This document shows positions 7,495 through 30,318 of a DNA stretch of 47,324 bases, one piece after another. Every line of letters begins with the position of its first letter. Position 1 is the stretch's first letter. This DNA is from Sulfurimonas sp. GTDB taxonomy: Bacteria; Campylobacterota; Campylobacteria; Campylobacterales; Sulfurimonadaceae. The notes beneath the pieces are model-generated. The model searched no databases. It saw only the letters and a program-made list of their open reading frames with translations, and was not told the DNA's origin. The stretch is from the NCBI GenBank assembly GCA_002899765.1, contig PPDH01000043.1, positions 18,445 through 65,768 of the forward strand. The letters run 5' to 3'. The position numbers and the translations under genes are program-made.

Positions 7495-7567
7495 AATAAT
7501 CTTTTTGTTGAAATTATAACCTAAAAATTAATTTTATTTTTTACAATTTTTTCTCTTAAAGGGATAT

Positions 7568-7583
7568 TGATAAGAATTATCAG
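7568..7583. promoter_or_regulatory. Fur-box-like palindrome 1 upstream of porin
   Basis: TGATAAGAATTATCAG contains opposed GATAA and TTATC half-sites, matching the Fur consensus (repeats of GATAAT/ATTATC). It lies about 70 bases before the porin start codon. Confidence 0.6.
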
Positions 7584-7602
7584 TATTAAGTTATATATAA
7601 GT

Positions 7603-7619
7603 TGATACTGATTATCATT
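7603..7619. promoter_or_regulatory. Fur-box-like palindrome 2 upstream of porin
   Basis: TGATACTGATTATCATT matches the Fur box core with GAT and ATTATC elements. It is 20 bases downstream of the first box, with a TATATAA-like stretch between them that may be the promoter. The pair suggests iron repression of the porin. Confidence 0.6.
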
Positions 7620-7653
7620 TCATAAGTAAATTTAATTAAAGGCTATAAACCCA

Positions 7654-8970
7654 ATGAAAAAAATAGTTTTAAGTGTGTCTCTGGCTGTTTTAATGCTAAA
7701 CAGCAATGCAAATGCGGCAGATAAAGCATCTCAAAAAGTAAAAGATAGAGAACACTCGGTTAGGGATGTAATCGATGAAGTAGCAAAACCTAAAGACAAA
7801 GAGGTTACGACAGCTGAAGAGCTTAAGAATATATTTAAAGACGGCACGGTTTCAGGGCAGGTCAGAATGTTGTATTCAGGTTACGATAATAGCGGAGCGG
7901 AGAATCAACATGCAACGGCAATCGGGGGTCAATTAAAGTTTGAACTAGCAGAGTTTAACGGTTTTAATGCAGCCGTGGAGTTTACGACTTCACATGATAT
8001 AGGTTTTGCAACGGGGGATGATGCAAAACAAAACAGTGAGATATCTTCTGAAGAGGGGAGCTATACGGAACTTTCACAAGCTTATATAAACTATAAAAAC
8101 GGAGGGTTAAATCTCCGCGTGGGTCGTCAGCTTATAGACACTCCATTAGCGGACAGCGACGATATAAGAGTGATATTAAACACATTTGAAGCATATACGG
8201 TAACTTACGAGAATGAAGGTTTAATGTTAATGGGTGGTTTGCTTACAAGATGGCAGGGAACGGACACCGGTTTATCTTCTACAAACCCATGGTCTGATAC
8301 GGGTGAAGACGGAACATATTTCGGTGGGGTTTCATACTCTACGGACTTTATAGATACAAGCGTATGGTATTACGATATATCAAAAGACGACAATCCAAAC
8401 AGTGCAACGGGCAATGTTGCAAACACCTCTTTATATGCAGATATTTCACTGCATATGGCTCTCTCAAATGATTATGCGCTTCACACAAGTGCTCAATATA
8501 TAAACCAGAGCGAATCGGACAACAGCGGCATTGAATCTTCAATATACGGGGCAATGGCAGAGTTTGTAATGTTTGAAGATTTTGCCGTATCTGCCGCATA
8601 TAACAAGTCTAAAAAACAAGCGCTCAAAGGCAGCTTCTCAGGCTTTGGCGGAGGAACTCTATACACAAATATGGACTCTATGATAATAGATGCTATTACT
8701 GTAGATAGAGATGTTCAGGCTGTTGTAGCAGGTTTTACATATACATATAATGACTTTGGTTTTATGTACGCATACGGGGATTTTGACGGGAAAGCCGATT
8801 CTCTTGGAGCAAAAGAGCATATAGTAGAACAAAATATAGGTTTTGAATATACTCCAAATGAAAACCTAACGATTGCAGCTATATATGTTAAAAATGAAGA
8901 CAAAGAAAATAGCCAAAGCAACGGCGGAGATTGGGAAAATATCAGAGCTTTAATCTCATACAGTTTTTAA
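7654..8970 (+). CDS. Outer-membrane porin, OprD-like, iron-regulated
   Basis: This 438-aa precursor has a signal peptide (MKKIVLSVSLAVLMLNSNANA, cleaved near residue 21), a short coiled-coil-like segment, and then a long run of alternating amphipathic strands typical of a beta-barrel. It ends in LISYSF, with the C-terminal phenylalanine recognised by the BAM machinery. The region after residue 60 (FKDGTVSGQVRMLYSGY) resembles the Opr/OprD porins found in Sulfurimonas and relatives. Two Fur-like boxes lie upstream, so it is probably induced in iron limitation and could admit iron complexes or small siderophores. It has no TonB box or plug domain, so it is not a TonB-dependent receptor. Confidence 0.82.
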   Translation: MKKIVLSVSLAVLMLNSNANAADKASQKVKDREHSVRDVIDEVAKPKDKEVTTAEELKNIFKDGTVSGQVRMLYSGYDNSGAENQHATAIGGQLKFELAEFNGFNAAVEFTTSHDIGFATGDDAKQNSEISSEEGSYTELSQAYINYKNGGLNLRVGRQLIDTPLADSDDIRVILNTFEAYTVTYENEGLMLMGGLLTRWQGTDTGLSSTNPWSDTGEDGTYFGGVSYSTDFIDTSVWYYDISKDDNPNSATGNVANTSLYADISLHMALSNDYALHTSAQYINQSESDNSGIESSIYGAMAEFVMFEDFAVSAAYNKSKKQALKGSFSGFGGGTLYTNMDSMIIDAITVDRDVQAVVAGFTYTYNDFGFMYAYGDFDGKADSLGAKEHIVEQNIGFEYTPNENLTIAAIYVKNEDKENSQSNGGDWENIRALISYSF

Positions 8971-8989
8971 TACGCGATACAAACATTTG

Positions 8990-9012
8990 CCCGGTATGTT
9001 ATTTATATCGGG
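8990..9012 (+). terminator. Weak hairpin after the porin
   Basis: CCCGGTAT (8990-8997) pairs with ATATCGGG (9005-9012) including one G-T pair. There is no clear T-run, so termination is uncertain. Confidence 0.3.
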
Positions 9013-9112
9013 TGCTAGATACATTTCTTCTTCTTCACTCAATTTTACTCTATCTCCATTTATCTAAATAAAGAATCTTCTTCAGATATACAAAAAAAGC
9101 AAAATAGGTAAA

Positions 9113-9137
9113 GATTATGATAATAAATATCATAATC
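9113..9137. promoter_or_regulatory. Perfect palindrome, Fur-box-like
   Basis: GATTATGATA and TATCATAATC form a perfect 10-bp inverted repeat with a 5-base spacer. Opposed TGATA/TATCA elements match Fur operators. It lies 63 bases upstream of the 54-aa gene. Confidence 0.55.
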
Positions 9138-9163
9138 ATAAAACTTTAAGTTTCTCTCTGATA

Positions 9164-9190
9164 TTATTATGATAACAATTATCATAATAA
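9164..9190. promoter_or_regulatory. Perfect 12-bp palindrome, Fur-box-like, abutting the ribosome binding site
   Basis: TTATTATGATAA and TTATCATAATAA are perfect inverted copies with a CAA spacer. The right arm ends directly before GGAGAA, the ribosome binding site of the 54-aa gene, so a bound repressor would cover the transcription start or early leader. Confidence 0.65.
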
Positions 9191-9199
9191 GGAGAATTC

Positions 9200-9364
9200 A
9201 TGTCTGATATTGCTATACAAAGTGAAATAAACAAGCTTATAAGAGAGTCCGGTTTTCAAAAAGATCAAAAAATGCTTTGCTCGATAACAAGAGTATTCAA
9301 AATGCGTTATCCCTCTCTTGATAACCTTAGAGTTTGCAAACTTGCAAATGAAATTCTAAAATAA
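9200..9364 (+). CDS. Small Fur-controlled hypothetical protein (54 aa)
   Basis: This 54-aa protein is too short to be noticed in a size-limited gene search. It has an ATG with AAGGAG 6 bases upstream and ends at a TAA 9 bases before the DUF2325 gene. It looks helical and soluble, with two cysteines and no signal peptide. I do not recognise a family. The strong ribosome binding site, the adjacent palindromes and the tight spacing to the next two genes support it as the first gene of an iron-responsive micro-operon. Confidence 0.65.
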   Translation: MSDIAIQSEINKLIRESGFQKDQKMLCSITRVFKMRYPSLDNLRVCKLANEILK

Positions 9365-9373
9365 GTCAGTCCA

Positions 9374-9703
9374 ATGAGTATTTTAGTTATAGGCGGAGAT
9401 AAAATTGATGCTATAAAATCTATACTTCAAGTTTTTGGAGCATCCTCCGTAGTTCATTGGGATGCGAGAAAAAAGTCGGTATGCAAAAAAATCATACCTA
9501 TTGACATAGAATGTGTAGTTATGTTGACTTCTTTTTTAAATCATAACGCCATGAAATATTTTAGAAGTGAAGCAAAAAAACGGGATTTACCCGTAGTATG
9601 TTCTAAACATAACAGTAGTTGTTTTTATGATGAGTATAAAAAAATAATGGGCAGTTCACACTGCTTAAATTGTGAAACTTACAGTGATTGCACGATAAAA
9701 TAG
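9374..9703 (+). CDS. DUF2325 protein
   Basis: This 109-aa soluble protein resembles DUF2325: it begins with a short Rossmann-like strand-turn (ILVIGGDKI), has a central VVMLTSFLNHNAMK segment and a further strand LPVVCSKH. The C-terminal end carries cysteines (CSKHNSSC, then HCLNCETYSDC) that could bind metal or an Fe-S cluster. The biochemical function of DUF2325 is unknown. It is the middle gene of the micro-operon behind the twin Fur-like palindromes, so an iron-related role is inferred. Confidence 0.75.
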   Translation: MSILVIGGDKIDAIKSILQVFGASSVVHWDARKKSVCKKIIPIDIECVVMLTSFLNHNAMKYFRSEAKKRDLPVVCSKHNSSCFYDEYKKIMGSSHCLNCETYSDCTIK

Positions 9704-9717
9704 ATGAAGGAATAAAG

Positions 9718-9912
9718 ATGGCGCAACAAATTATTAATGAGATAAATAGGTTTGTTACTTTTAGATTTGATTATAAAAAAAACAGAGTTGTAAATCTAAA
9801 AATAAACAGAGACGTTGAGGTGGATGAGTTTTTAGATATTCAGTACATACTTGATTGCAACAAGGTCAGATACAGTTTTGAGAAAAACTTTGAAATTCAG
9901 ATACTTAATTGA
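9718..9912 (+). CDS. Small hypothetical protein (64 aa) in the DUF2325 operon
   Basis: This 64-aa protein is rich in beta-strand-like and basic segments (FRFDYKKNR, NLKINRD), with no signal peptide or membrane helix. I do not recognise a family. The ATG at 9718 follows GAAGGAATAAAG, a good ribosome binding site, 14 bases after the DUF2325 stop; an in-frame ATG at 9688 overlapping DUF2325 is less likely. It is the last gene before a strong hairpin. Confidence 0.65.
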   Translation: MAQQIINEINRFVTFRFDYKKNRVVNLKINRDVEVDEFLDIQYILDCNKVRYSFEKNFEIQILN

Positions 9913-9917
9913 GCAGT

Positions 9918-9945
9918 AGAGTAGTTAAAAAACTTTAACTACTCT
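9918..9945 (+). terminator. Hairpin between the converging micro-operon and cytochrome gene
   Basis: AGAGTAGTTAAA (9918-9929) and TTTAACTACTCT (9934-9945) form a perfect 12-bp stem with a 4-base loop. It overlaps the last codons and stop of the cytochrome gene on the other strand. Only GTTT follows on the plus strand, so it may act as a weak terminator or mRNA end stabiliser. Confidence 0.55.
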
Positions 9946-12900
9946 GTTTAACTCGACAACAGGCGGGTTTGGAAGTTGTGGATAAGCCTGTTTTACTGCA
10001 TCTGTTACCCATTGCGGGTAAATTCTAAAATTTAGTTTTACGGTAGCTTTTAGCGGATATTTTAGTGTTTTGCCCTTAGGTATTTTGTAGGATTCTACTC
10101 GTCTCTCTCCTGCGGCGATTCTGGTGTCGCTTAGGAGTTTTTCATATTTCCAAAAAAGAAGTCCCGCAGGTTTGCCATCTTTGTCTGCAAACACTTTCAT
10201 AAAAGGTCGCGCATCTTCGCCGAGATTTCCGTCACTTTTTAATTTTCCGCTCTCAAACACAACTTTCCCGTCGGCATCTTCGAGCGTGATATCAAGCCAT
10301 AACTCTCTAAAGTCCGCAACTCCCGTCGGCAGATGATGTCCTGCACCGACATTTGTCACTCCGATTATTATCTCTCTCTCTTTGATATCCACGTCAAGTT
10401 TTGCAGACATTTTTAAGAGTTGCAGAGTCTGTTCTTCATGTGTTTTACTTTTTAACCCTGATAAGAAATGATTTGAACCGGCAAAATAGTGAACTTTTAC
10501 ATCATCTTTTATTTTGCCGCCATCGGTTGAAAAACCTTTTAAAGGGGAAAATTTACCCTCTTGCAGATTTGTCATGTGGCAATCAATACAGCTTTTATGT
10601 TTGCTTGGATTCTCAGGATTGTTAAACGGCGACTTCTCCCACTCTTTAAAAGTGGAGACTATCTCACTTGCGTTGCCCGGACTAAACTCATCATGACAAG
10701 AGGCACAGTAAGCGGCATCTTTATAGACGGGTTTCATATAGCTCTCTTTATGAGCTTTGGGCTTTGAGTTTATAAATTTTTAACTAAGCCACTGCCCCAT
10801 CTCCGAGTTGCTGTCTTCAAATGCATACTTTTCTCGCTCGGTGATATTTAAAGTATAAGATGCGTTTCCGCCCGTATTTTCAACCTTTGTAATTCTATGA
10901 CATGTAATACAGGAAACTCCCTCTTCAAGTTTTGAGTTGCCATGAACTTTTAGCTCTTCTATCAGGGTTTTTGCCCCTGTGTCAAAAAATTTGTCCATGG
11001 TGTCCGTAGTCTTTTGCAAACCTGTCGTAACGGCACTTGGATTGTGGCATCCCATACACCATTTTCTAAACTCTTCGCCTTCTTCTTTTGCCGCCAGATT
11101 TTCCAAAACCATGTAGTAAGGGTTTGTTCCAACCAGATTTTTATGGTTTGAATCCGCCCATTGCTCAAATATATCGGAGTGGCACGATTTGCATTTTGCG
11201 GAGTTTGTCCAATCCTCAACATGGTATTTTTCTACATCGTCTTCGAGCTTTATCCAAGTCGAGAGATATCGCAGATTCTCTTTTGAAGTGACATAACTGT
11301 GCAGATTTTGCATTTTGTCTTTTAATTCGGCACTCATATTCTCAGGGTCTGCCAAAGCTATTTGCGCTTTTTCGTCTGCTCCCATTCCGCCTTGCGTATC
11401 TCTGGCAATTCTCACATAATCAGCCAAAGGAGTTTTTGAGATAAACCCGTTTAAATTATCATGTCCGATAGTCGCTTTTTTAAACTTGTCGACTTGTGTA
11501 TCTTTAAATAAAAAGCGGTTTGTAAAATTAAACCCCTCAAAATGGCATGAGTTGCAGCTCATCCAAAAATCTCCGCTCATAGGAGTAAGGTTGTTAAAAT
11601 CCGAATTTGCATTGTTAAACAACTTTTTACCCTCTCTCAGGCGTGAGGGTAAAGGGTCTTTTGCAACTAGCTGAGAAAAAGACTCTTTTTGTAAAGTTAC
11701 ACGTGCAAAAGGGTGGCTTCCTCCGCTGTCTAAAAGCGTTATATTAAGAGTAGACGCGTTTTGAACATAGATGTTATTATTGTCGGGATGCACTAAAATA
11801 GCTTGCGGATTTGTGCCGTTAGGGTAGGCTCTGAAAATTTGGGTCGCTTTTGCTCCGCTTCCGCTAACATTTGCTTTTTTTCTGTGTCTTCTTCCTTTGG
11901 AACTGCTCTGGCTTCTCTCTAAATTAAAAACCATAACATCTTCGCTTCCCGCTAAGGTTACAAAAGCTTTTTGTGCGTCGTTTGAAAATGCCAAATCCCA
12001 AGGGTTTGAGACAATCATGGTCTCATTTTTGTTGTTTAGTATATTTATGGATTTGAAAAGGTGCTTTCTTTTTTGTTCATCTTCTCTCTCTAAACCTTCC
12101 TTTAGCGAGATAACCGAAATACTCGGGAAAACGGTTGACTGAAACTGGAAAGGGTGGTCAAAATTCCATAAAACATGAACAAGCCAAGCCTCGCTGCCGT
12201 CGGGTTTAATCTCGATGTCGTCCAAAAGTCTCGGCACGCCTTGCGATACGAACTCATCGCCGTCTTGAGTCGAATGCAGAGTTATAGTTTTTAGTTTTTT
12301 GAAACTCTTGCTGTCGTAAATCGTGACAATACCGAGCATCGCGTGCGTTACCAAAAGTCTTCCGTCATCTGTTAACGCCATTCCCCGCGGAGTCTCAAGA
12401 GTTTTAACGGTTTTTATAACTTTGAAGTTTGTATCGTCTATGACTAAAATTTCCTTATCCTCATAAATCGTTACAAAGAAATATCTGTTTTTTTCATCAT
12501 AAATTATCGCATGAGGTCTGTTGGGCGTTTTTACCTCTTTTATGATTTTATTCTCTTTGTTTAAAAAATAGACTCTGTTTTTCATATAGTCGGTTACGCC
12601 GTAAACGGACTCATCGCTCTTAAAAGCTATTCTTCTTATATCGATTCCTAAAACTTTTTCAAATATTTTTTTGCCGTTTTTTGCGTTGATTTTAGAGACA
12701 CTTCCGCCGTCTAGGTTTGCGCTGTAAATGTACTGCTTGTCTTTTGTCAAATACAGAGCCGAACTGCTCACGCTTGAGTAGGAGAGTGTCGGAATAAACA
12801 TCGTAAAGAGAATTACAAAAGCAAAAACGGCTTGTTTCTTAACTTTGAGTTTTCTCATTATTTGTTCCTTTTTGAGATTAGAGTATGGAAAATTGGTGTG

Positions 12901-13236
12901 ATGCCATAAAAAAAAGAGCAACAGGAATGAGCCGTATAAATGGATATTGTATGAGTACATACCGACTTCATCACCGCCACGGTTACCTACAAAAAAGAGA
13001 TACAATCCGCTAAGAGTTACAAGCAAAAGAGTTATTCCCAAAAACATGCCGTTTTTGTTATTTCTTTTTTTGCCTATTAAATTGTTTCTGTATTTAAAAA
13101 CATGAATATTTACAAAGGGTATGATTAAGAGAGCAGATACTGTGATTGAACTGATGATATGCACGGCTTGCAAAGTGGAGTAGTATTTCCACTCAATTGC
13201 AAAAATATCCCATTGAGCTATGCCTGTTGCAAACAT
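9925..13236 (-). pseudogene. Membrane/beta-propeller/multihaem cytochrome c, split by an in-frame TAA
   Basis: The frame from 13236 to 9925 would give 1103 residues but is broken by one TAA at 10780-10782 (codon 819); the same frame continues on both sides. In order: about 126 residues with three membrane helices and histidines (H26, H45, H99, H112, H113) that could hold b-type haem, then a signal-like helix, and a YVTN-type beta-propeller (about 150-500). Next come haem c sites CNSCH, CKSCH, CMGCH and CITCH, the stop, then CASCH and CIDCH and a beta-rich end. An ATG at 12858 with AAGGAAC upstream precedes the signal-like helix (MRKLKVKKQ), so translation could start there instead, giving a separate periplasmic cytochrome. 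The context with Fur boxes suggests electron transfer tied to iron. Real disruption versus sequence error is undecided. Confidence 0.75.
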
Positions 13237-13382
13237 AAGTACGATTGAGAATTGAATATAAATTTATTTCACTTTTTAAACCTTCACAAAATAATAATAT
13301 ATGTAAAAATTATATAAAAAAAATCGTAAGAGCTTGCTTAATAATGAAAACCAATATCAAAAAGTTAAATAATTGTATTTTT

Positions 13383-13434
13383 AGATTGCCACGCTTCTAG
13401 CGAAGCTCGCAATGACGGAGATAGTCATTGCGAG
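13383..13434. repeat. Palindromic repeat element, copy 1
   Basis: AGATTGCCACG is followed by a GCTTC/GAAGC mini-hairpin and CTCGCAATGAC (13406-13416); GTCATTGCGAG (13424-13434) is the exact inverse of the last part, giving an 11-bp stem with a 7-base loop. The same AGATTGCCACG...CTCNCAATGAC pattern recurs at 34981-35010. It lies in the gap between the 660-aa gene and the cytochrome gene. It resembles REP/BIME-type dispersed elements. Confidence 0.65.
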
Positions 13435-13493
13435 GAGTAAAACGATGCGGTTTAATTCGATAATTTGACTTTTCCTGCCATAGTCATAGCAGT

Positions 13494-15476
13494 TCAGAAT
13501 TTTCCGCCTGCTTTGTTGATTGGAGCGACGTTGTCTCCATCGTTGTTGCCCGTCGTCATTGAAGCCGTTTCATACTCGCCCGAATCAAGAAGCCACTCTG
13601 AGAGTTGAGCGCCGTCGGTTAAGGAATTTCCGTTTATGACCAGCTGAAACCATCTCGTAAATCTCTCGGTTAAGTTTTTAAGTTCAAGAGCCGGCTCTTT
13701 TTCTGCACCCGTATTTTTCAGATTGCTGATAGCACTTCTAAGACCGCCACTGAGAGCCGCGATTGTATAAGGCGTGTACTCTTTTGAGGCATCGACATAT
13801 GTGCCGATTTTTTTATCGTACATGTTATTCTCGATTGAGACTACCAATGCTCTTGCCGCTTCTCTGTATTTGCTCTCTTTAGTCGCCAGATATGCAGCCG
13901 TAAGTCCTCTTACTACCGCAAACTGTGTTCCTAAATCCTCTCCCTTTTTTGAACCGTTTGCTACGTTAAAAGTAGTTGCATATAAACCGTTTTTCCCTTT
14001 TGCTTTAGCAATTAAAAAATCAGCTTGAGTTTTAACAAGCTCAAGCGCTTTTTTGCCTTGCGCAGTCTCTAAAGATTGCGCGCCCTCGCTTGAACCGTAA
14101 CCTACAGGAAGTGCATCTATGGCTCTTTGGAAAATTCTGAGCGCTTCTATAGAGTAAGCCGCATCATAAATTGTAACCGTATCGCTTTGTTTGCCGTCAA
14201 ATCTGTCTATAAAAGTTCCTGCTTTTTTATCAAAGTGAAGTTTTGAAATATTTTCAAACATCAAATTAGCGATATTGGCAGCAACCGAGAATGCGTCATC
14301 TGCTTTAATATCATTTTTCCCGTTTGTGTCGATATTTGCTTTTGGAGCGCTCTTAAAAGGTTTGCCGTCAAACACTGCTAAAAATGCAGGGTTTTGATTT
14401 TGATTAGCGCTTCTTTGATCCGAATATGCATAAAACTCGCTGATTGGCCAAAGCATCTGCCAAGTATCTCTTAGGGAAGAGTGAGACTCTTTGACATGTA
14501 AAGAAGCGACAGATTTTGTGCCGTTTGCACTTCCCTCTTTTACCGTCACACTGTTTGCAAACCATACAGGCTTGCTTGCATCGTAAGACGGATCAAACTT
14601 CGCACCTAAATTTTTGCCGTCAAAGCCCAGTTTTTCTTGCATGTAGAGTATTCGCTCCCATGCAAGTTCCGTTAGAATTGCCCCGTTGACACCGTCTGCG
14701 CCTGAGACTCCAAGAGCATGTTTTCCATCAGAATCCATAGAAGCACTTGCAGCTTCCACCTCTTCATCGCCCTCTATCTTATGCATGCCGCCGAGAAAAT
14801 CCTGCGCCCACATGATATCTTTTAAAAGTGCCGCGCCGAGTGAAGCGGGATTTAGCGTTTTGTCCATTTCGCCCTCAACCCAAGAGAGAGTTTTATAGTC
14901 TCTTAAATAAGCAGGTATCGAAGTTTTTACAACGCTCTCTTTGCCGTGTTTAAAAACGCTCATTTCATCGTTATTTACAATTGTCATATCAATTTTTTGC
15001 GCAAATTCAGGGATTCCCGAAGTGTATGGAAGTGCCGTCGGATGCATATTTAAGGGTATGATTTCAGGGTCATTTCCTGTTGCTTTTGCAAACTCTATAA
15101 ATCTTTTTGCCAAAGATGACATGTCACCGCCTCTTGAAGCGTTTAAAAGACCGTTTACCAGATGTGCGCCCATTTTTGACTGATAATTCAGTGCATACAT
15201 AGCCTCTTCGGAGTATTCATAACTCTCGATTCCTGCCGTATAGTCAAACTCCGTCGGTTTATTTATAGCGTTTGGATCTAGCGTGTCCAAGTCCAGCCCG
15301 AGTGATTCTGCAAGAGGTTCTCCCGAGAGTTCAAACTCCGTATAGGCAAGCATTGCACCTGCAGTATAAAATCTTTTATCTAAAACCTCTGCTTTAGTGT
15401 TAGAAAACGGCTTTGAAGCATACAGCGATGTTATTGCCAAAGAGGCAATAAGTGACAACTTTACTATCTTGTTCAT
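13494..15476 (-). CDS. Exported 660-aa protein of unknown family, Fur-controlled
   Basis: I do not recognise this family. The 660-aa precursor starts with a typical signal peptide (MNKIVKLSLIASLAITSLYA, cleaved after residue 20). The first third is acidic; the middle contains tryptophan-rich segments (SLRDTWQMLWPISEFYAY); and the second half (about 390-640) alternates long helices with short conserved turns (YDAAYSIEALRIFQRAI, LGTQFAVVRGLTAAYLA, YTIAALSGGLRSAI), which looks like an alpha/alpha toroid. It has no cysteines that I can see, so no haem or Fe-S cluster, and no membrane helix after the signal. Two Fur-like boxes lie directly upstream and the multihaem cytochrome gene lies 257 bases downstream. 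An iron-binding, ligand-processing or scaffold role would fit, but is speculation. Confidence 0.75.
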   Translation of the reverse strand: MNKIVKLSLIASLAITSLYASKPFSNTKAEVLDKRFYTAGAMLAYTEFELSGEPLAESLGLDLDTLDPNAINKPTEFDYTAGIESYEYSEEAMYALNYQSKMGAHLVNGLLNASRGGDMSSLAKRFIEFAKATGNDPEIIPLNMHPTALPYTSGIPEFAQKIDMTIVNNDEMSVFKHGKESVVKTSIPAYLRDYKTLSWVEGEMDKTLNPASLGAALLKDIMWAQDFLGGMHKIEGDEEVEAASASMDSDGKHALGVSGADGVNGAILTELAWERILYMQEKLGFDGKNLGAKFDPSYDASKPVWFANSVTVKEGSANGTKSVASLHVKESHSSLRDTWQMLWPISEFYAYSDQRSANQNQNPAFLAVFDGKPFKSAPKANIDTNGKNDIKADDAFSVAANIANLMFENISKLHFDKKAGTFIDRFDGKQSDTVTIYDAAYSIEALRIFQRAIDALPVGYGSSEGAQSLETAQGKKALELVKTQADFLIAKAKGKNGLYATTFNVANGSKKGEDLGTQFAVVRGLTAAYLATKESKYREAARALVVSIENNMYDKKIGTYVDASKEYTPYTIAALSGGLRSAISNLKNTGAEKEPALELKNLTERFTRWFQLVINGNSLTDGAQLSEWLLDSGEYETASMTTGNNDGDNVAPINKAGGKF

Positions 15477-15490
15477 CTAAATTCCTTATT

Positions 15491-15514
15491 TTGATTTGAA
15501 AACGATTATCAAAA
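15491..15514. promoter_or_regulatory. Fur-like half-sites upstream of the 660-aa gene
   Basis: TTGAT, then AACGATTATCAAAA, with an ATTATC element typical of Fur operators, lies 15-38 bases before the start codon on the minus strand. It is weaker than the palindrome at 15548. Confidence 0.45.
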
Positions 15515-15547
15515 TTATAAATAAAAAAACTTAATGTCTGTTTAATT

Positions 15548-15567
15548 TGATAATAATTATCATAATA
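15548..15567. promoter_or_regulatory. Strong Fur-box-like palindrome upstream of the 660-aa gene
   Basis: GATAATAATTATC is a perfect palindrome about a central A and is followed by ATAAT, very close to the Fur consensus. It lies about 75 bases upstream of the 660-aa gene and immediately beyond the end of the glycosyltransferase gene. Confidence 0.65.
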
Positions 15568-15569
15568 AT

Positions 15570-16790
15570 CTACTCTTTTAGCAGATAGAGTGTTTTTTCG
15601 CCTACAAAACGCCCTTTGTAAATCTCATAATCTGCCTCTTTTGGTTTTTTAGCCGTGATGATATAAACTCTGTTTTGTTCATTAAGGTACTTTGCACTCT
15701 CGCCGTAATAGTTGTCTGCAACTCTGTAGTTATAAACAGTTCTCAGTATCTCTATGCCTCTGTTTGCTATGATTATTCTCTCCGTAAGGGCTCTGTTTTT
15801 GGCTATCTGCTCGATGGGAGAAATCTTTTCATCATATTGTAAAATATGAAATATATTAAATGAGAGTATCAAAAAGAGTATTAACGGCATTTTCTTTAAA
15901 TAGATTGAGAGAAAAATATTGGCTATAAAAATCAAAGGTATTACATGTCGAAGGCTGTCGGGATTTTGGGCAAAGAGTATCCATAAAAAGTAGCAAACAA
16001 AAAGCAGGTACAAAAGCGTGAACCTCCGTTCTTGTTTAAAAAGCAGAAATATCAAAAATATATAGGGCATGTTTACAAACGAGAATATATTGTCAAACCA
16101 TGAAAGTTCGCTGTTTTGTCCCCGCCCCCAGAGTGAGAAATGCCCCTCTATAAACCTCACTCCCTCATGAAAATAGAGCATACCGTTGTTTATAAAGACA
16201 AAGAGCAAAAACAGAGCGGAGGTTGAGAGAAACCAAATCAAGACGGGTTTTAGGGAGTCTCTTTTAAACAAGTAGAGATATATAAATCCCGCAATAAAAA
16301 AAATAAGATAAGAGGGTCTTGAAAAAAATGAGACGGCAAAAATGATACCGCTTAATCTGTTTTTTTTAAGTTCAAGAGCGTAGAGCCCTAAAAAGAAAAA
16401 GAGCAGACCGACACTTTCACTTAACATGTCAAGCGAGATATTCATAAGATAAGGCGTTGTAATTGAGAGCAAAAATGCTATAAAAGCCGTCTTTTCATCT
16501 TGCAGTTATTTTGTGTATAAAAAGATAACAAGCGGCAGCAGTATAGCACTTAGAGCCGTGAGAATGAAGAGAGACTGTTTGGCATCATGTATAAAAAAAT
16601 CGATGATTTTGCCAAAAATAACTACAGAGGGATAACCGGGAAAATGTGGAGAAAAATCTATAATGCTAAAGTTTTTTATACCGTTGGTCAAAAAAAGCGA
16701 ATCGTCATTAAAATATGAAGCAGGGTAGGCAAAAATAAAAAGGGCATAAACAAAAGTGCTTATGCTGACAACCGTTTTGTAGCCGCTCAT
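15570..16790 (-). pseudogene. GT-C type glycosyltransferase (ArnT/PMT-like), split by an in-frame TAA
   Basis: Bases 16790 to 15570 form one frame of 406 codons interrupted by a TAA at 16506-16508 (codon 95). The first part has an N-terminal membrane helix followed by NDDSLFL, resembling the acidic catalytic motif in the first loop of GT-C enzymes that use polyprenyl-phosphate sugars. The second part has about eight further helices and a soluble C-terminal domain. No start codon with a ribosome binding site follows the stop, so the two halves are not two genes. Its ATG directly follows the stop of the 184-aa gene (TAAATG), making it the last gene of the FTR1 operon. Substrate unknown. Confidence 0.7.
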
Positions 16791-17345
16791 TTAGATTGAT
16801 TTTAAAATTTGTGCTATAACTTGTTGATTTTTTTTGTACTCTTGCTCATCTGCCACCTTTGCTCCTACGCCAAAAAGACCGGGATTTCCGATAGAATCCG
16901 CACATTTTTTTATGGCTGCTTTAAGTATTTCATTTTTCTCTTTATCTAAACTAACCGATAAAATCTTATAAAACTTATCGGCTTTTGCCAGCATAACTTT
17001 TGCTACGTTAAACACTTTTATATTCTCTAAACCGCCTTCGATTCTTCTTTGAATCTCACAAGCGATGGATACATCAAGCCATCTGAATACCTGCTTTTTG
17101 TCGTGATTTGAAATCGATGTTTTCAAACCCTCAAAAAGCAGAGTGTTAAACTCATCATTTAAGTATCGATAAGTCTGCTCATACTCTTTAAACACCGTTT
17201 GCGCCATCTTAAAGTCATCACCGTTTATGGCTCTTGTAATCGCTTCTTTTGCATCTATTGTCGGCTCTTTTCCTGCTGCCGCATAAGAGTATGCATGTAA
17301 AGTAGAAGCTATAAAAGCCTCAATAAATAATAGTAAAATCTTCAT
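16791..17345 (-). CDS. Periplasmic helical protein next to FTR1
   Basis: This 184-aa protein starts with a signal peptide (MKILLLFIEAFIASTLHAYS). I chose the ATG at 17345 because AAAGGAAAAAAG precedes it; longer in-frame starts would overlap the flavoprotein gene and hide the signal. The mature part is mostly helical, with segments AINGDDFKMAQTVFKEYEQ and LFEGLKTSISNHDKKQVFRW, and ends in GNPGLFGVGAKVADEQEY. It resembles the periplasmic helical domain fused to many bacterial FTR1 permeases, suggesting a detached iron-delivery partner; this is inferred from resemblance and position. Two cysteines are present. Confidence 0.65.
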   Translation of the reverse strand: MKILLLFIEAFIASTLHAYSYAAAGKEPTIDAKEAITRAINGDDFKMAQTVFKEYEQTYRYLNDEFNTLLFEGLKTSISNHDKKQVFRWLDVSIACEIQRRIEGGLENIKVFNVAKVMLAKADKFYKILSVSLDKEKNEILKAAIKKCADSIGNPGLFGVGAKVADEQEYKKNQQVIAQILKSI

Positions 17346-17373
17346 CTTTTTTCCTTTGTTATCTGATATTTTT

Positions 17374-18768
17374 TCAAGCGACGCTTTTTGTCTCAATGAC
17401 CGTTTTTTCATTTCTGTGATTGTAGATTTTCTCTTTTGAAACGCTTGAGTCTCCAAGAATTCTCCCCGCCGCCATCAGTCCCGTTTCCATTGCTGTATCG
17501 AGAAATATGTATCTGAAAGTTCCCTGTCTTCCTGCCATCACAAGATTTTCAAATCTGCTCAGACGCTCAATGGCGTGGTCTCTTTTTTTATTGTAGCTTA
17601 TGTCCATCAAAGTATAAGCATGTTCGGTGGTAAAAGAGAAGCTTTCTATTATTTTCTCTTCAATATCAAACCCCAATTTTTTTAAATCATGTTTTACGAT
17701 TTTTAAAAGCTCTTCTTTGTCCATGTTCCAGATTTTGTCGTTTTTATCGCAGGGAATCTCAAGCATAATGGAACTTTTGCCTTTTGGAGACATAAACTTT
17801 GATCTTCTTTTTGGCTCTTGTATCCTTGTCGGCAAAAGCTCATAATCGCTTACATACTGCCAAGTGTGCGGCGAAAAATCCTCCATATCCAAACCTATGC
17901 ACAAAAACCTGAGACTTCTGAATTTCAAACCGCTCTCGTAACAGAGCTTTAAAGACATCTCGTTAAGCGGCATTGTTGAGATGATGTCATCGGCTTTAAA
18001 ACTCTGATTTTGCGTATGAACGGCTGTTATGGCGTTGTCCGTATATTCAAAGTTTGTCACCTCGCTATCAAGAAATATCTTTCCGCCTAAAGCTTCAAAT
18101 CTTTGTGCCATTCTCTTTGGAAGTTCTCCAAAGCCGTATTTTGGGTATCTGTAGCTTTTGGCATAGGTTCTTGCTGTTTTTTTATTTTTAACGAGCAGTT
18201 TTTTCGCCACATCTTTTAAATCAAGCAGTGAAATTCTCTGTCCTGCCCAGTCGGCACTCAAATCTTTTGGCTCTATTCCCCACAGTTTTTTTGTATATGG
18301 TCCAAAAAAATTCTTATACAGAGTTGCTCCGAATCTTGATGTTATCCAAGTCTCAAAACTTTTATCCTCAGGCTTTACAAATTTTAACAAAATCTTCAAG
18401 GTGTCAAAAGATGCGCCAAAAAGAAGTTTTAAAGGAGCTGTTTTTAAAAGGTTTTTCAAATTTAGCGGATACTCATAGACTCTGTTTTTGTGAAGTATGA
18501 CGGAGCTTCTGTTGGCAACCAAAAGATTGTTGCCTAAAATCTCTTCTACAAAAGCAAGAAGAGTCTCATTGTTCGTGATAAACCTGTGTCCGCCGTAGTC
18601 AAATCTGTACTCTTCATCTTTTGTATTTAAAACTTCCGTTTTGCACTGTCCGCCGACACAAGACTCTTTTTCTAAAAGTATTACGCTCTTGTTCTCTTCT
18701 AAAAGTTTTATGCCCGCCATGAGTCCTGCAACTCCGCCTCCGATAATCAAAACATCGCTATTTTGCAT
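17374..18768 (-). CDS. FAD-dependent oxidoreductase, protoporphyrinogen oxidase/UDP-galactopyranose mutase-like
   Basis: This 464-aa flavoprotein starts with a Rossmann dinucleotide-binding loop (VLIIGGGVAGLMAG, residues 6-19) and continues with LLEKESCVGG and DYGGHRF. The FGPYTKKLWGIEPKDLSADW segment near residue 170 is typical of the UDP-galactopyranose mutase/COG1232 group; the C-terminal end has a second FAD-contact region (AGRQGTFRYIFLDTAMETGLMAA). I chose the ATG at 18768, which overlaps the FTR1 stop by 11 bases; longer in-frame starts lie inside FTR1. Reaction unknown: sugar isomerisation, or redox work on a lipid or porphyrin, are possibilities. Placement next to a GT-C enzyme favours a sugar or lipid substrate. 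Confidence 0.8.
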   Translation of the reverse strand: MQNSDVLIIGGGVAGLMAGIKLLEENKSVILLEKESCVGGQCKTEVLNTKDEEYRFDYGGHRFITNNETLLAFVEEILGNNLLVANRSSVILHKNRVYEYPLNLKNLLKTAPLKLLFGASFDTLKILLKFVKPEDKSFETWITSRFGATLYKNFFGPYTKKLWGIEPKDLSADWAGQRISLLDLKDVAKKLLVKNKKTARTYAKSYRYPKYGFGELPKRMAQRFEALGGKIFLDSEVTNFEYTDNAITAVHTQNQSFKADDIISTMPLNEMSLKLCYESGLKFRSLRFLCIGLDMEDFSPHTWQYVSDYELLPTRIQEPKRRSKFMSPKGKSSIMLEIPCDKNDKIWNMDKEELLKIVKHDLKKLGFDIEEKIIESFSFTTEHAYTLMDISYNKKRDHAIERLSRFENLVMAGRQGTFRYIFLDTAMETGLMAAGRILGDSSVSKEKIYNHRNEKTVIETKSVA

Positions 18769-19573
18769 AGGCGTAAGTTCTCTTCCATAGTATAACTGCG
18801 CTTGACATGTACAAAGCCCAAGAGAGCAGATGCAGCAGCGAAGGCGAGGAGTTGTACCCAAAGAGCGCTCTTAAAAAAGTTCCGATTAAACTTCTGTCAT
18901 CCAAGATATGCGAGATATCGTAAACTATCGGCATAAAAACAGGAGCGAGTCCGCTTGCCTGCATCATGGAGACGGCACTTCCGAAAAGTCCGCCCGCTAT
19001 TATCAAAATAAGAAGCGAAGTGTATTTGAAAAATGCTTTTATAGGGATGTTTTTTACGCCTTTCATAAGCGCATAAACCAAAATTATAGATACGATAATC
19101 CCTAAAGAAGCGCCGATAAGTCCGTCCTGGGCACTTATGTTTTCTCCTATGCTGAGTGAGGAGAAAAAGAGTACGCTCTCAAAACCCTCTCTTAAAACCG
19201 CTAAAAATGCCAAAAAGACCATACCCGCTATATTGCCCGCCGTTACCAAACGCTCCAGATTTTCTTCTATTTCGCCCTTTATCTGTTTTGATTGGTTTGA
19301 CATCCAAAAAACCATGTAAGACAAAACAAGAGTTGCAAAAAGCAGAATAAAAATCATGAGATAGTGCTGATAAAGTTCATTTTCCATGCCGTAAATCACG
19401 ACTTGAAAAATATATGCGAGAACGAGCGACACCACAATCCCCAACATAACGCCCAAATAGATATACTTATGATACTGTTTTACTTGAAGGCGGCTTAAAT
19501 AGGAGAGAATAATTCCCACTATTAAAAAAGCCTCTAAACCTTCTCGCAGAGTTATTAAAAAACTTGCTAACAT
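18758..19573 (-). CDS. FTR1-family high-affinity iron permease
   Basis: This 271-aa membrane protein imports ferric or ferrous iron across the inner membrane. The two REGLE-type signatures are present: REGLE at residues 10-14 and REGFE at 128-132, each in a membrane helix; seven helices are visible. Length matches EfeU-type permeases without a fused periplasmic domain. The ATG follows AAGGAATAGA. A Fur-box-like palindrome lies about 20 bases upstream, so it is likely derepressed in iron limitation. It leads the operon with the flavoprotein, the 184-aa periplasmic protein and the glycosyltransferase, and diverges from feoAB. Confidence 0.92.
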   Translation of the reverse strand: MLASFLITLREGLEAFLIVGIILSYLSRLQVKQYHKYIYLGVMLGIVVSLVLAYIFQVVIYGMENELYQHYLMIFILLFATLVLSYMVFWMSNQSKQIKGEIEENLERLVTAGNIAGMVFLAFLAVLREGFESVLFFSSLSIGENISAQDGLIGASLGIIVSIILVYALMKGVKNIPIKAFFKYTSLLILIIAGGLFGSAVSMMQASGLAPVFMPIVYDISHILDDRSLIGTFLRALFGYNSSPSLLHLLSWALYMSSAVILWKRTYAYAK

Positions 19574-19592
19574 TCTATTCCTTGCAGATAAT

Positions 19593-19611
19593 TATAATAA
19601 TCGTTATCATT
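19593..19611. promoter_or_regulatory. Fur-box-like site between FTR1 and feoA
   Basis: TATAATAATCGTTATCATT carries AATAATCGTTATCATT-type half-sites of a Fur operator. It is about 20 bases from the FTR1 start codon and 110 bases from feoA, so it most likely controls FTR1; control of feoAB from here is uncertain. Confidence 0.6.
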
Positions 19612-19686
19612 GTAATCTTTTGTAAATAAAAAGTTACTTAAGTATAAATCAATCTAAGCTAAATTAAACAATAATCTAAATTTCTC

Positions 19687-19692
19687 TATAAT
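19687..19692 (+). promoter_or_regulatory. -10 box for feoAB
   Basis: A perfect TATAAT lies 29 bases before the feoA start codon. It does not overlap the Fur-like site at 19593. Confidence 0.5.
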
Positions 19693-19721
19693 TACGCAAC
19701 TGAAAAGAAACAGAGAAAAAT

Positions 19722-19976
19722 ATGCCTGATAAAAGAGACAGTAACAAAACAAAAAGATTAAGCGATTGTAAGAAAGCATGTGTGGTAAAAGTAACCAAGC
19801 TGTATGCAGATTCGGAGCTCAAACAGAGGCTTATTTCGTTTGGGATTATCAAAGATGCCGTAGTTGAGGTTTTAGAGTATGCTCCCGCAAAAAGCACTAT
19901 AGAGATAAAGGTCGGCAAGATGAGAATAGCGCTTCGTGCTAAAGAAGCCAATCAAATTGAGGTTGAAAAAATATGA
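19722..19976 (+). CDS. feoA: Ferrous iron transport accessory protein FeoA
   Basis: This 84-aa cytoplasmic protein has the SH3-like fold of FeoA: VKVTKLYADSELKQRLISFGIIKDAVVEVLE followed by strand segments ending ALRAKEANQIEVEK, written here as two separate regions about residues 24-54 and 72-83. It supports FeoB in ferrous iron uptake. A 15-residue basic N-terminal extension precedes the domain. Its TGA overlaps the feoB ATG (ATGA, 4 bases), so the two are co-translated. Confidence 0.93.
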   Translation: MPDKRDSNKTKRLSDCKKACVVKVTKLYADSELKQRLISFGIIKDAVVEVLEYAPAKSTIEIKVGKMRIALRAKEANQIEVEKI

Positions 19977-22111
19977 AAACAGCGCCAAAGAGTTGTCCGA
20001 TAACGGCAAAACATATCAAGATTGCATTGGTCGGTCAGCCAAACGTCGGCAAGAGTATGCTTATCAACTCTATCTCAAACGCACATCTACATGTAGGAAA
20101 TTTTACGGGCGTTACCGTTGAGAAAAGCGAAGTTCTTTTTGATTATAAGGATTACCATTTTACCGTTGTAGATTTGCCGGGAACTTACGCTTTGAGCGAT
20201 TACTCTATCGAGGAGAGAGTAACAAGCGAGTATCTTTTGAGTCAAGATTATGACCTTATCATCAATGTAGTCGATTCTACAAATTTACAAAAAAACCTCC
20301 AACTTACCGCGGAACTTATGAGTATCGGCAAAAAGATGCTGGTTGCTCTAAATATGAGCGATGAAGCGCGAAAAGAGGGGATTGAAATAGACAGCGGGTA
20401 CATGTCAGAACTTCTGGGATTCTCCTGCGTAAAAGTCTCCGCCGCAACAAAAGAGGGCATAGAAGAACTTATTGAAGCCATGATAGTAGAGTATGAAGCT
20501 CAAAGCATGGAGTATAAACTTATATTTAGTGAAGCGGTTGAAGAGGAGATAGCTATTATCGCCGATTACTTGGCAAAACATAAGTACGAAGATGAAAACT
20601 CTTACAGAAATATCGCGATAAATCTGCTCAAAAACGATAAAAAGACCTATGCAAAACTTCATGATGAACCTATCTGGACAGAACTTCAGCCGATTTTAAT
20701 AGAGGCTTCAAAGCATATTGAACTTCATCATGAGTGCAATGATATAAAAGAGGCTTTTGCCGAAGAGTATACCTCTTTTAACCGAGGAGTAATTACTGAA
20801 GTTTTAAAGCAGGATGTAAGGAAGTCGGATAAAACTCTTACCGATAGGATTGACTCAGTGCTAATTCATCAAATGTTCGGCATACCGATATTTCTCTTTT
20901 TTATGTGGGGGCTTTTTCAGCTTACATTTGAGATAGGCTCCATTCCTATGGAGTGGATAGATGCTTTTTTTGTTTGGTTTGGTGATACGGTCGGAGCTAC
21001 CATAGCAAATGACGATGTCCGCTCTCTTGTGGTCGATGGCATTATCTCGGGAGTCGGTGCGGTTGTTTTGTTTGTTCCAAATATTGCCATACTTTTTGTC
21101 GGTATTGCACTTTTGGAGAGTACGGGTTACATGTCAAGAGTTGCGTTTTTGCTTGATGGATTTTTTCACAAATTCGGTCTTCACGGACAGTCGTTTATAC
21201 CGCTTGTAACCGGTTTTGGCTGCTCGATTCCTGCTTACATGTCGGCGAGGATTTTAAAGAATGACCGCGACAGACTGCTTACGCTTTTTATCATAGGATT
21301 TATGAGCTGCGGAGCAAGACTCCCCGTATATGTTCTTTTTGCAGGTGCATTTTTCTCGGAGTCCATGGCTGGAAATGTTCTCTTTGCTATCTATATAACA
21401 GGTGCTATGCTTGGACTTTTTGCGGCTAAAATACTGAAACTAACGGCATTTAAAGGCATAGATTAACCTTTTGTAATGGAGATGCCAAAGTATAGACTTC
21501 CTTCACTCAAACTTATTTGGCACACCGTTGTTACAAAGACTCTTATGTATCTAAAAAAAGCGGGTACTTTTATAGCTGCCGCTTCAATACTTGTATGGTT
21601 TTTGAGCAATTATCCGCACAATCAAGAACTTGAAAATAGCTATGCTTTAAAGATTGAAAAAATTATAGACAAGGATGAGATAACGGTTCTTGAAAATAGT
21701 CTTGCAGAGGCTAATTTAGAGCAGAGCTATTTGGGGCGCATAGGTAAGTTTTCAGAACCTTTCTTCGCGCCGCTCGGGTTTGACTGGAAGATGAGTGTGG
21801 CACTTCAAACAGGACTTGCAGCAAAAGAGGTTGTCGTCTCAACACTGGGTGTTTTATATGCGCTTGGCGGAGATGTGGATGAGCAGAGCAGCTCTTTAAA
21901 AGAGATAATCTCAAAAAACATCTCATTTCCATCAGCCGTCGCATTTATAGTAGTTGTCATGATATATCTGCCATGTCTGGCTGCCTCTGTGGTTTTTACG
22001 CGTGAAGCAGGGGGTATAAAGTACTTCTTTTATCTTTTGGCTTTTACATCCATAGCGGCATATTCGCTCTCATTTATAGCCTTTAATACTGCATCGATAT
22101 TCTATAACTAA
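19973..22111 (+). pseudogene. feoB: Ferrous iron transporter FeoB, interrupted by one in-frame TAA
   Basis: FeoB imports ferrous iron and has a GTPase domain plus a membrane domain with Gate motifs. The GTPase motifs are present: G1 GQPNVGKS (residues 21-28), G3 DLPG (67-70), G4 NMSD. Membrane helices start near residue 300. The frame of 712 residues, a normal FeoB length, is broken by TAA at 21464-21466 (codon 498), inside a segment that reads KGID-stop-PFVMEMPKYRLP. In FeoB proteins a glutamate normally precedes PFVMELP, so the likely ancestral codon was GAA, one base away. An ATG at 21476 lacks a convincing ribosome binding site and the second part alone cannot work. Without suppression FeoB would be non-functional. 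Confidence 0.9.
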
Positions 22112-26286: not shown

Positions 26287-26601
26287 ATGAAAAAGTTGAA
26301 TTTTTTATCATTAGTTGCAGCGACTGCAATGGTTTTAAGCATTGGGGCTACGACGCTCAGTGCTGAGGGAATGAAGTGTGGTGCAGGTAAATGCGGCGAT
26401 TCAAAAAAAGAGACATATCGTGACGGAAAGTGTGGTGATTCAAAAAGAGATATGAATCGTGACGGTAAATGCGGCGATTCAAAAAGAGATACGTATCGTG
26501 ACGGTAAATGCGGCGATTCAAAAAGAGATATGAATCGTGACGGGAAGTGTGGCGATTCAAAAAAACAAGCGCCTAAAGCAGGCAAGTGCGGTTCTAATTA
26601 A
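26287..26601 (+). CDS. Secreted Cys-repeat peptide, HvfA-like RiPP metallophore precursor candidate
   Basis: This 104-aa precursor has a signal peptide (residues 1-26, ending TTLSA) followed by KCGAGKCG and five 13-residue repeats of the form GKCGDSKRDxxxRD (residues 34-98), then GKCGSN. Seven cysteines all sit in KCG motifs. The composition and the repeated Gly-Lys-Cys-Gly core resemble HvfA-type precursors, in which EGKCG cysteines are converted to oxazolone/thioamide groups that bind copper. The modifying MNIO (DUF692) enzyme and its HvfC partner are not in this window. A strong ribosome binding site, a Crp/Fnr-type operator and a strong terminator suggest a highly expressed single-gene transcript. 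Unmodified metal binding is an alternative. Confidence 0.7.
   Translation: MKKLNFLSLVAATAMVLSIGATTLSAEGMKCGAGKCGDSKKETYRDGKCGDSKRDMNRDGKCGDSKRDTYRDGKCGDSKRDMNRDGKCGDSKKQAPKAGKCGSN
26386..26580 (+). repeat. Five tandem 39-bp coding repeats
   Basis: Five in-frame units of 39 bases encode the GKCGDSK repeats. Units alternate between TYRD and MNRD endings (1 and 3 versus 2 and 4), which suggests a 78-bp duplication of an older pair. Confidence 0.9.
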
Positions 26602-29785: not shown

Positions 29786-30318
29786 TAGTTTTCCTTGTAA
29801 AAATTATATATCTCTTTTGCGCATTTTTTTGGCAGTTTTGAGATTTCAACACACTCTCTAAGTTTTGTTGATGATATTTTTTCATCAACATCCAGTCTTA
29901 AAAACTGCTCTGAAATCTAAATATTGTCTCTTGGAACCACTATAAAAGTTACTAACTTTTTGAGTTCATCATATCTATCCCATTTTTCAAGGCAAGAGAG
30001 GTTGTCCGCACCGATTACAAGATATATTTTTTTATAACTTTTTAATAGATGTTTTACGCTCTCTATTGTTGCTACTTGTCTTTTTTGTAAAACTTCATAC
30101 TCTGAAATTTCTATATTTTTATATTCTGCAAAAATCTCTTTTAGCCACTCCACTCTAAGAGAAGCAGGAGCATAAAATTTTGATTTAAAAGGATTTAAAA
30201 ATGTCGGCATTATTATAACTTTGTCAATTTCTTTGAAATTTATCAAAGCCTTAACAATTGCCTCATGACCGATATGCGGCGGGTCAAAAGAGCCGCCAAA
30301 AAGTGCGATTGTATCCAT
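29770..30318 (-). pseudogene. nadD: Nicotinate-nucleotide adenylyltransferase NadD, interrupted by one in-frame TAG
   Basis: NadD makes nicotinate adenine dinucleotide from NaMN and ATP and is essential for NAD synthesis in most bacteria. The nucleotidyltransferase motif GGSFDPPHIGH is at residues 8-18 and the later IGADNLSCLEKW and FIVVPRDNI segments are intact. The 182-codon frame, a normal length, is cut by TAG at 29917-29919 (codon 134). Downstream the frame reads ISEQFLRLDVDEKISSTKLR, including the conserved ISST-x-LR motif needed for substrate binding. One base change from GAG, AAG or TCG would give this stop. It diverges from gap. The tail overlaps rsfS. Confidence 0.9.

Follow-up and report, generated by a model that had tools for sequence, protein, structure and literature searches.

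What is the task of the genes that lie between pssA and the ferrous iron importer genes feoAB in a Sulfurimonas sp., and do they belong together? The question is raised by a stretch of 47,324 nucleotides of contig PPDH01000043.1 (the window; G000:C21:18445-65768), taken from a genome, G000, assembled to 2.39 Mb in 45 contigs. An earlier note had proposed a Fur-controlled reductive iron-uptake island there, and all of the genes that it named were present: those for an FTR1-type permease (FTR1), a flavin adenine dinucleotide (FAD) enzyme, an exported partner (p184), a GT-C-like glycosyltransferase (GT-C), an exported protein of 660 amino acids (aa; p660) and a multihaem cytochrome, together with a porin gene, a micro-operon with a DUF2325 gene, and feoAB. 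We found Fur-box-like sites at the promoters of this block and co-conservation of six of its genes across phyla. From these sequence data we consider it fairly probable that the block is a Fur-regulated iron-acquisition island working by the steps proposed below; it resembles iron importers of a known type, in a form that seems not to have been described.

Six genes conserved together across phyla

To survey p660, GTDB contigs were scanned with two peptide patterns, which gave 20 loci, or 21 with the window; near-copies are L077, L078 and L087, then L079 and L084, and L080 and L081. L082 is the locus of genome G216, L077 that of G317, and L092, also numbered L006, that of G024. The carriers belong to Arcobacter/Aliarcobacter, Sulfurimonas, Sulfurospirillum, Campylobacteraceae, Photobacterium, Aliivibrio, Endozoicomonas, Oceanospirillales and a Rhizobiaceae metagenome-assembled genome (MAG); plasmid records added four carriers from Aeromonas and one from Anoxybacillus.

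Results showed that the set of FTR1, FAD enzyme, p184, GT-C, p660 and cytochrome genes was complete in 10 of the 21 loci (the window, L075, L082, L087, L092, L086, L089, L090, L093 and L094), standing together in Sulfurimonas, Arcobacter, Photobacterium, Aliivibrio and Endozoicomonas. Each of the 10 loci with FTR1 on the stretch also held the other five genes, and an eleventh set, L077, is split over two contig ends. Three arrangements occur: FTR1-FAD-p184-GTC-p660-cytochrome (window, L075, L087, L092); p660-cytochrome-FTR1-FAD-p184-GTC (L082); and, in five gammaproteobacterial loci, p660, a separate b-type gene, FTR1, FAD, p184, GT-C and a gene for a propeller-haem protein. A nucleotide-sugar-epimerase-like gene, named by eye, stands between p660 and the cytochrome in L075 and L092 and adjoins the cytochrome in L089. 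Between the six proteins, pairwise distances show correlations of 0.91-0.99 across the 10 loci, to which the separation of the phyla contributes, and again of 0.91-0.99 when only the five gammaproteobacterial loci are taken. Co-conservation of the 660-aa protein, the cytochrome and FTR1, the test that the earlier note had set for itself, holds across phyla, and we infer that the island spread by horizontal transfer.

The cytochrome gene lies near p660 in 17 of the 21 loci. The stretches of L080, L081 and L083 end 885, 761 and 53 bp past p660, and no cytochrome is visible on them; in L085 a convergent gene follows p660, with no cytochrome within 3.6 kb. FTR1 is found on other contigs in the genomes of L079 and L083. 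On an Anoxybacillus plasmid (Bacillota; L129, 13001-17973), a DUF2325 gene is accompanied by genes for a 170-aa protein, p660 (43% identical) and a propeller protein with two CXXCH motifs, with a Fur-like box upstream. Because three genomes carry p660 and the cytochrome without a detected FTR1, and this plasmid has a p660-propeller pair, p660 and the cytochrome are the predicted core, and FTR1-FAD-p184-GT-C is a cassette that can be absent. The plasmid cluster is flanked on the other strand by genes for a zinc ABC-transporter binding protein and a GTP-binding protein.

Fur-box-like sites at the island promoters

We scanned for the Fur consensus TGATAATNATTATCA, counting as good a site with at most two mismatches and taking expectations from Markov-2 shuffles. 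Positions 7501-19700 held seven good sites against 0.1 expected, and 333,846 bp taken from other contigs of the assembly also held seven. All seven sites fall at the four promoters where the earlier note had seen Fur-like palindromes: two before the porin gene (7568-7582 and 7603-7617, one mismatch each), two before the DUF2325 micro-operon (9118-9132 and 9170-9184, one mismatch each), two before p660 (15497-15511, two mismatches; 15548-15562, none) and one in the divergent FTR1/feoA promoter region (19595-19609, two mismatches). No such good site stands directly before the cytochrome gene in the window. When three mismatches were allowed, the whole window had 13 sites against 7.0 expected, a count reached by 1 of 100 shuffles; this excess is modest, so the Fur signal sits in the good matches. 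The window genome has four FUR-family matches.

In the other genomes, at most two mismatches were again allowed in the 250 bp upstream of p660, of the leading porin gene (L082, L083) or of the DUF2325 gene (L129); L085 was left out, its p660 start being cut. A Fur-like box was present at all 12 Campylobacterota loci besides the window and at four of nine loci outside that phylum (L088, L089, L094 and L129), with 0.000-0.015 expected per locus; several loci are near-copies, so the independent cases are fewer than 12. The porin gene of L082 is preceded by the same two sites as that of the window. At the 12 other Campylobacterota loci the distance from box to start codon is 28 to 135 bp, as for repression. 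These putative sites, placed at promoters and kept in other genomes, support Fur-type regulation of the island.

Elsewhere in the window genome, a stretch of contig G000:C12 (L022, 2386-9636) holds the two best Fur-box-like sites of the other contigs. They precede ABC-transporter-like genes, and NnrS and a TonB-receptor-like gene lie in the region (named by eye); an L022-like binding-protein gene, also named by eye, is found inside the G024 island (L006, 5999-7003).

Island proteins, neighbouring genes and interrupted frames

The FTR1/EfeU-type iron permease (18758-19573, minus strand, 271 aa) matched PF03239 with 163.5 bits against a curated cut-off of 25.3 (E 5.5e-48) and has two REXXE motifs, REGLE and REGFE; two such motifs occur in all 10 loci. 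Against its 271 aa, the other FTR1 matches in the phylum are mostly longer open frames of ~440-750 aa. The FAD enzyme (17374-18768, minus strand) is PRK07208-like (NCBIfam NF005547, 475 bits, cut-off 380), with Amino_oxidase and UDP-galactopyranose-mutase-like matches in Pfam. The GT-C-like multi-pass glycosyltransferase (15570-16790, minus strand) is one gene of 410-430 aa in relatives, and the intact G317 copy matched Pfam PMT_2 below the cut-off (E 1.5e-4). The earlier note had suspected the FAD and GT-C enzymes of another task; we assign both to the island because they stand, as p184 does, with FTR1 in all 10 loci that bear it.

The p184 gene (16791-17345, minus strand) encodes an exported all-helical protein, a candidate partner of short FTR1 permeases. 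Its predicted model is confident and helical (predicted local distance difference test, pLDDT, 89), and no fold was assigned, since a best Foldseek E of 1.5 and VIA-align Z of at most 9.3 are uninformative for a helical bundle. Strong hits of the p184 profile came from 4 of 298 phylum genomes, and one further match was weak and partial. The gene lies within ~1.5 kb of a short FTR1 in G000, G216 and G226, and in G317 FTR1 is at another contig end; a relative adjoins FTR1 and DUF2325 in L117. Although p184 travels with short FTR1, it does not appear to be the detached FTR1 domain that the exported partner had been taken for: HHalign gave a probability of 1.7% against the N-terminal regions of six fused FTR1 proteins.

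The p660 gene (13494-15476, minus strand) ends in a TGA at 13494-13496, and its relatives are ~14 aa longer. The protein had no match in Pfam or NCBIfam, and p660, p184 and DUF2325 had none in PHROGs; the sole PDB profile match of p660 was cellobiose 2-epimerase (E 0.023). Its predicted model (pLDDT 68 overall, with 185 of 660 residues at >=90; predicted template modelling score 0.77) aligned with cellobiose 2-epimerase 3vw5 over 327 residues (Z 20.3, root-mean-square deviation 3.3, 11% identity), with a best Foldseek E of 4.3e-6. On this model, p660 is an (alpha/alpha)6 barrel; it carries many invariant Asp/Glu/Tyr, a cluster of which falls at residues 44-99. It had no match to the imelysin family M75, and GxHxxE, present in 13 of 19 rows, is not conserved. 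On two Aeromonas plasmids (L128, 13932-15932; L130, 11932-13932) a p660 homologue lies among insertion elements, beside glgC, with no annotated cytochrome or FTR1 on these stretches.

The cytochrome gene (9925-13272, minus strand), a single gene in relatives, joins a b-type segment, a beta-propeller and a region of six c-type haems. Four His are invariant in all 13 b-type segments, which we read as ligands of two b haems, and six CXXCH motifs occur in 10 of 10 loci. A likeness to NCBIfam ExtKL (E 2e-7 and 5e-7) is confined to the C-terminal multihaem region and far below the cut-off (NF040886, 28.7 and 29.8 bits for two pieces against 250). Sulfurimonas paralogues are 56-67% identical to the cytochrome in the haem region and 41-62% in the b-type segment. 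Unlike it, they lack a propeller; at the three sites read (L119, 9755-11563; L120, 8740-10560; L121, 9681-11489) they stand not beside iron genes but directly after genes for a three-haem cytochrome and short-chain-dehydrogenase/reductase-like proteins. The L119 copy, which belongs to the genome of the window, is likewise interrupted by TAA.

FTR1 permeases are widespread and, to our knowledge, have cupredoxins, P19, imelysins or peroxidases as partners. The island resembles EfeUOB/M of E. coli and P. syringae in combining an FTR1-type permease, exported partners and a haem redox protein; the EfeB peroxidase is of the DyP type. Its FTR1 scored 202.5 bits with the EfeU model, under the cut-off of 255, and in Foldseek the p184 model resembled EfeO very weakly (E 1.5). 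Unlike EfeUOB, the island has p660, p184, the FAD enzyme, GT-C and a putatively quinone-linked multihaem cytochrome instead, and a scan that covered island proteins but not other parts of the genome found no M75, cupredoxin or DyP. FtrABCD of Bordetella and Brucella also sets an FTR1 permease alongside exported and redox partners; the scanned island proteins gave no P19, cupredoxin or polyferredoxin/ferredoxin-type match, and their redox partner is another one. The C. jejuni 1649-1656 locus (FTR1-P19-ABC-thioredoxin), for which passages of PMC6083913 propose periplasmic reducing partners, is likewise a Fur-box-preceded FTR1 operon in Campylobacterota. Unlike it, the island has no P19, ABC proteins or thioredoxins, and the exported island proteins had no P19 match in Pfam or NCBIfam that would place them with C. 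jejuni 1649-1656 or FetMP.

Imelysin/IrpA/di-haem oxidoreductase operons also combine an exported binding protein with a haem protein under iron control, and the FTR1 islands of both G226 and G064 contain imelysins; p660 differs from them in predicted fold and in lacking an M75 match. In G226 an imelysin stands with a di-haem oxidoreductase (DHOR, E 2.2e-180), a porin, a short FTR1, DUF2325 and a p184 relative. The row in G064 comprises DUF2325, a porin, a ferritin-like gene (by eye), an imelysin, a cytochrome b561-like gene, a five-haem cytochrome and a fused FTR1; G062 has the same row by similarity, the imelysin scan having covered G064 and G226. DUF2325 occurs in four kinds of such iron-type loci, yet it is a widespread family. 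We found no description of the present gene set in the open-licence literature searched, a limit that makes the absence weak; the earlier note had likewise known of no such system.

Upstream of the six genes lie an exported Opr-like outer-membrane porin of 438 aa (7654-8970, plus strand; NCBIfam Opr porin E 2.5e-10, below cut-off) and the DUF2325 micro-operon (9200-9912, plus strand), which consists of a 54-aa open reading frame (9200-9364), the 109-aa DUF2325 gene (9374-9703; Pfam E 2.3e-13) and a 64-aa frame (9718-9912). The two small frames had no match in any of 51 loci searched, where DUF2325 matched only the FTR1 islands L111, L112 and L117 and, next to p660, L129, and the micro-operon was rejected as a part of the module. 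In C. jejuni, according to excerpts of PMC9426514, a DUF2325 protein is a PerR-regulated member of a catalase cluster. On the other side lie feoA (19722-19976) and feoB (19973-22111; E 6.8e-140), both on the plus strand. In G004, 86% identical over the test region, pssA, feoA and feoB are directly adjacent and the island is lacking; G011 also lacks it and has a 48% identical porin between pssA and feoA. G216 has one co-directional run, porin-p660-cytochrome-FTR1-FAD-p184-GTC-feoA-feoB, headed by an 87% identical porin. This comparison indicates that feoAB was there first and that the island was added next to it, or else was lost in relatives. Judged by gene order, feoAB is an older neighbour rather than the island member of the earlier proposal, near relatives having it without the island, and the porin may be part of the older pssA-feoA site. 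Further along, the window encodes a 104-aa exported protein of near-identical repeats (GKCGDSKRD...; 26287-26601); shorter relatives occupy the same place in G004 and G011.

Several frames are interrupted. In-frame TAA codons occur in the cytochrome gene (10780-10782, and 13264-13266 near its start), GT-C (16506-16508) and feoB (21464-21466); in the relatives compared, no stop interrupts these three genes or the end of p660. Two usually essential genes, for GAPDH (30384-31382, TAA at 30831) and nadD (29917-30318, TAG at 29917), are also affected, and one gene upstream of the window has two stops (contig C21, 15350 and 16142). We surveyed 52,188 bp of G000:C21 covered by proteins of five relatives and classed the stops by eye: of 16 in-frame stops, eight read as mid-gene and eight as N-terminal-extension or shadow-frame artefacts, and all 25 control rows (G004 6, G216 8, G011 7, G356 1, G345 3) read as such artefacts. 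At the eight mid-gene stops relatives have Glu (six sites), Gly and Ser, the exceptions being His in G216 at the cytochrome site and Asn in G317 at the GT-C site, where the others have Glu. Each stop is one G:C-to-T:A step from the commonest relative residue, taken as ancestral, and base-level checks of the feoB, nadD and GAPDH stops all gave G:C to T:A. For the second TAA of the cytochrome gene (13264) no one-step origin is clear, and it stands outside the count of eight. Window-specific C>A substitutions were in slight excess (80/899 vs 40/572 in G345), so the case for an error lies in the nonsense codons.

Elsewhere in the assembly there were 12 candidate interrupted genes, three of which look like broken conserved genes that we take to be rluD-like, typA-like and mtnA-like; at the mtnA-like stop, for which no relative was compared, the expected residue is presumably Arg, a misfit with a one-step G:C-to-T:A change. 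The assembly-wide filter missed three of the known C21 cases that were checked against it (cytochrome, GT-C and feoB), hence no rate is given. Decay of the island was rejected as the cause, GAPDH and nadD being equally interrupted and the sites lying one G:C-to-T:A step away. TAA recoding was rejected as well: the stops stand in place of several different amino acids, and the 35 of 40 tRNA matches that were typed included no suppressor (five untyped). Rfam and tRNA searches of the window gave no match. The nonsense codons are likely an oxidation-type sequence error of the assembly, a mutator lineage being the less likely source, and on such evidence the island is not to be called a pseudogene cluster.

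Proposed working of the island and rival readings

Under iron shortage, Fur would leave the island promoters, the porin would admit iron complexes, and p660 would bind or process an iron-carrying ligand. The cytochrome, anchored by its four-His (two b-haem) membrane segment, would exchange electrons with the quinone pool on one side and, at its propeller/c-haem part, with iron on the other, where ferric iron would most likely be reduced. p184 would then pass iron to the REXXE motifs of FTR1, which would import it, and FeoB would offer a second way in. The presence of genes for GT-C, the FAD enzyme and the epimerase suggests that the system has a sugar part: the FAD enzyme and GT-C, sometimes with the nucleotide-sugar epimerase, would probably supply a glycan or ligand modification needed by the FTR1 arm. 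We suggest tentatively, at somewhat short of even chances, that this is a new importer class, in which FTR1 is combined with a quinone-linked b-type/propeller/six-haem cytochrome, an exported (alpha/alpha)6-barrel protein and glycan-processing enzymes of its own (FAD mutase-like, GT-C, epimerase), which may make or alter a sugar ligand that carries iron; the p660-propeller core of this class reaches Bacillota with DUF2325 and a Fur-like box.

Several observations weigh against this proposal. p660 is rare, being found in 2 of 41 relatives and 3 of 298 phylum genomes (the window genome counted in each), and it stands without a cytochrome in L085 and, adjoining glgC, on both Aeromonas plasmids read. 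L084, L088 and L091 have p660 and the cytochrome with no FTR1 match genome-wide, the L091 contig being short; L084 and L091, both MAGs, have no FeoB_C match either, so the importer would not be fixed. When the five Campylobacterota loci are taken alone, most distance correlations are weak (-0.08 to 0.91), and no box with at most two mismatches was found at five of the nine non-Campylobacterota loci (L086, L090, L091, L093 and L128). The porin and the micro-operon, counted in by the earlier note, have their own Fur-like boxes but are seldom kept with p660: a porin related to the window's lies near it in 2 of 20 other loci (L082, L083), and DUF2325 in 0 of the 20 from the pattern scan. We also know of no place for a GT-C enzyme in iron import.

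The same island might run its electrons in reverse, the cytochrome oxidising ferrous iron and passing electrons to quinone, as a ferroxidase-permease like Fet3-Ftr1, EfeUOB and FtrABCD; we hold this to be unlikely, yet it is the best placed of the rivals. Other known FTR1 systems have oxidising partners, and the G226 island pairs FTR1 with DHOR and imelysin. The two-CXXCH propeller of the Bacillota core has a tail that looks MauG-like by eye, and such a two-haem protein would fit an oxidase. For EfeB, PMC3143127 indicates a likely peroxidase. Reduction is disfavoured by the oxidising partners of known FTR1 and by L084 and L091, which lack both FTR1 and FeoB_C. It is favoured because the core exists without FTR1 and because the ferrous importer feoAB adjoins in the window, G216 and L075, though in Sulfurimonas feoAB is older than the island. 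The reductive direction of the cytochrome is plausible.

Distinctly improbable, in our view, is a Fur-controlled module that imports nothing and serves respiration or glycan processing (iron sparing, iron-replete electron disposal or envelope remodelling). The p660 model resembles sugar-active (alpha/alpha)6 barrels, GT-C and a UDP-galactopyranose-mutase-like FAD enzyme are present, with the epimerase-like gene in L075, L089 and L092, and glgC adjoins p660 on the Aeromonas plasmids. The propeller-less cytochrome paralogues lie away from iron genes at all three sites read, and some genes are activated, not repressed, by Fur. However, in none of the 10 loci has FTR1 lost a REXXE motif, the box spacing in the 12 Campylobacterota loci is that of repression, and an eight-haem protein made under iron shortage would be costly unless repaid in iron. 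A chance assembly of neighbouring genes, to which the lack of the block in the near relatives G004 and G011 might point, is refuted by the recurrence of the same six genes in 10 loci and three arrangements, and we give it almost no credence.

If the reading as a Fur-regulated importer is true, a quinone-linked multihaem partner would tie FTR1 iron import directly to the respiratory chain. It would give candidate roles to the nameless family p660 and to p184 as an exported FTR1 partner, and it raises a clear question: for what purpose would iron import need a glycosyltransferase and a mutase-like flavoenzyme, as found with it in two phyla?

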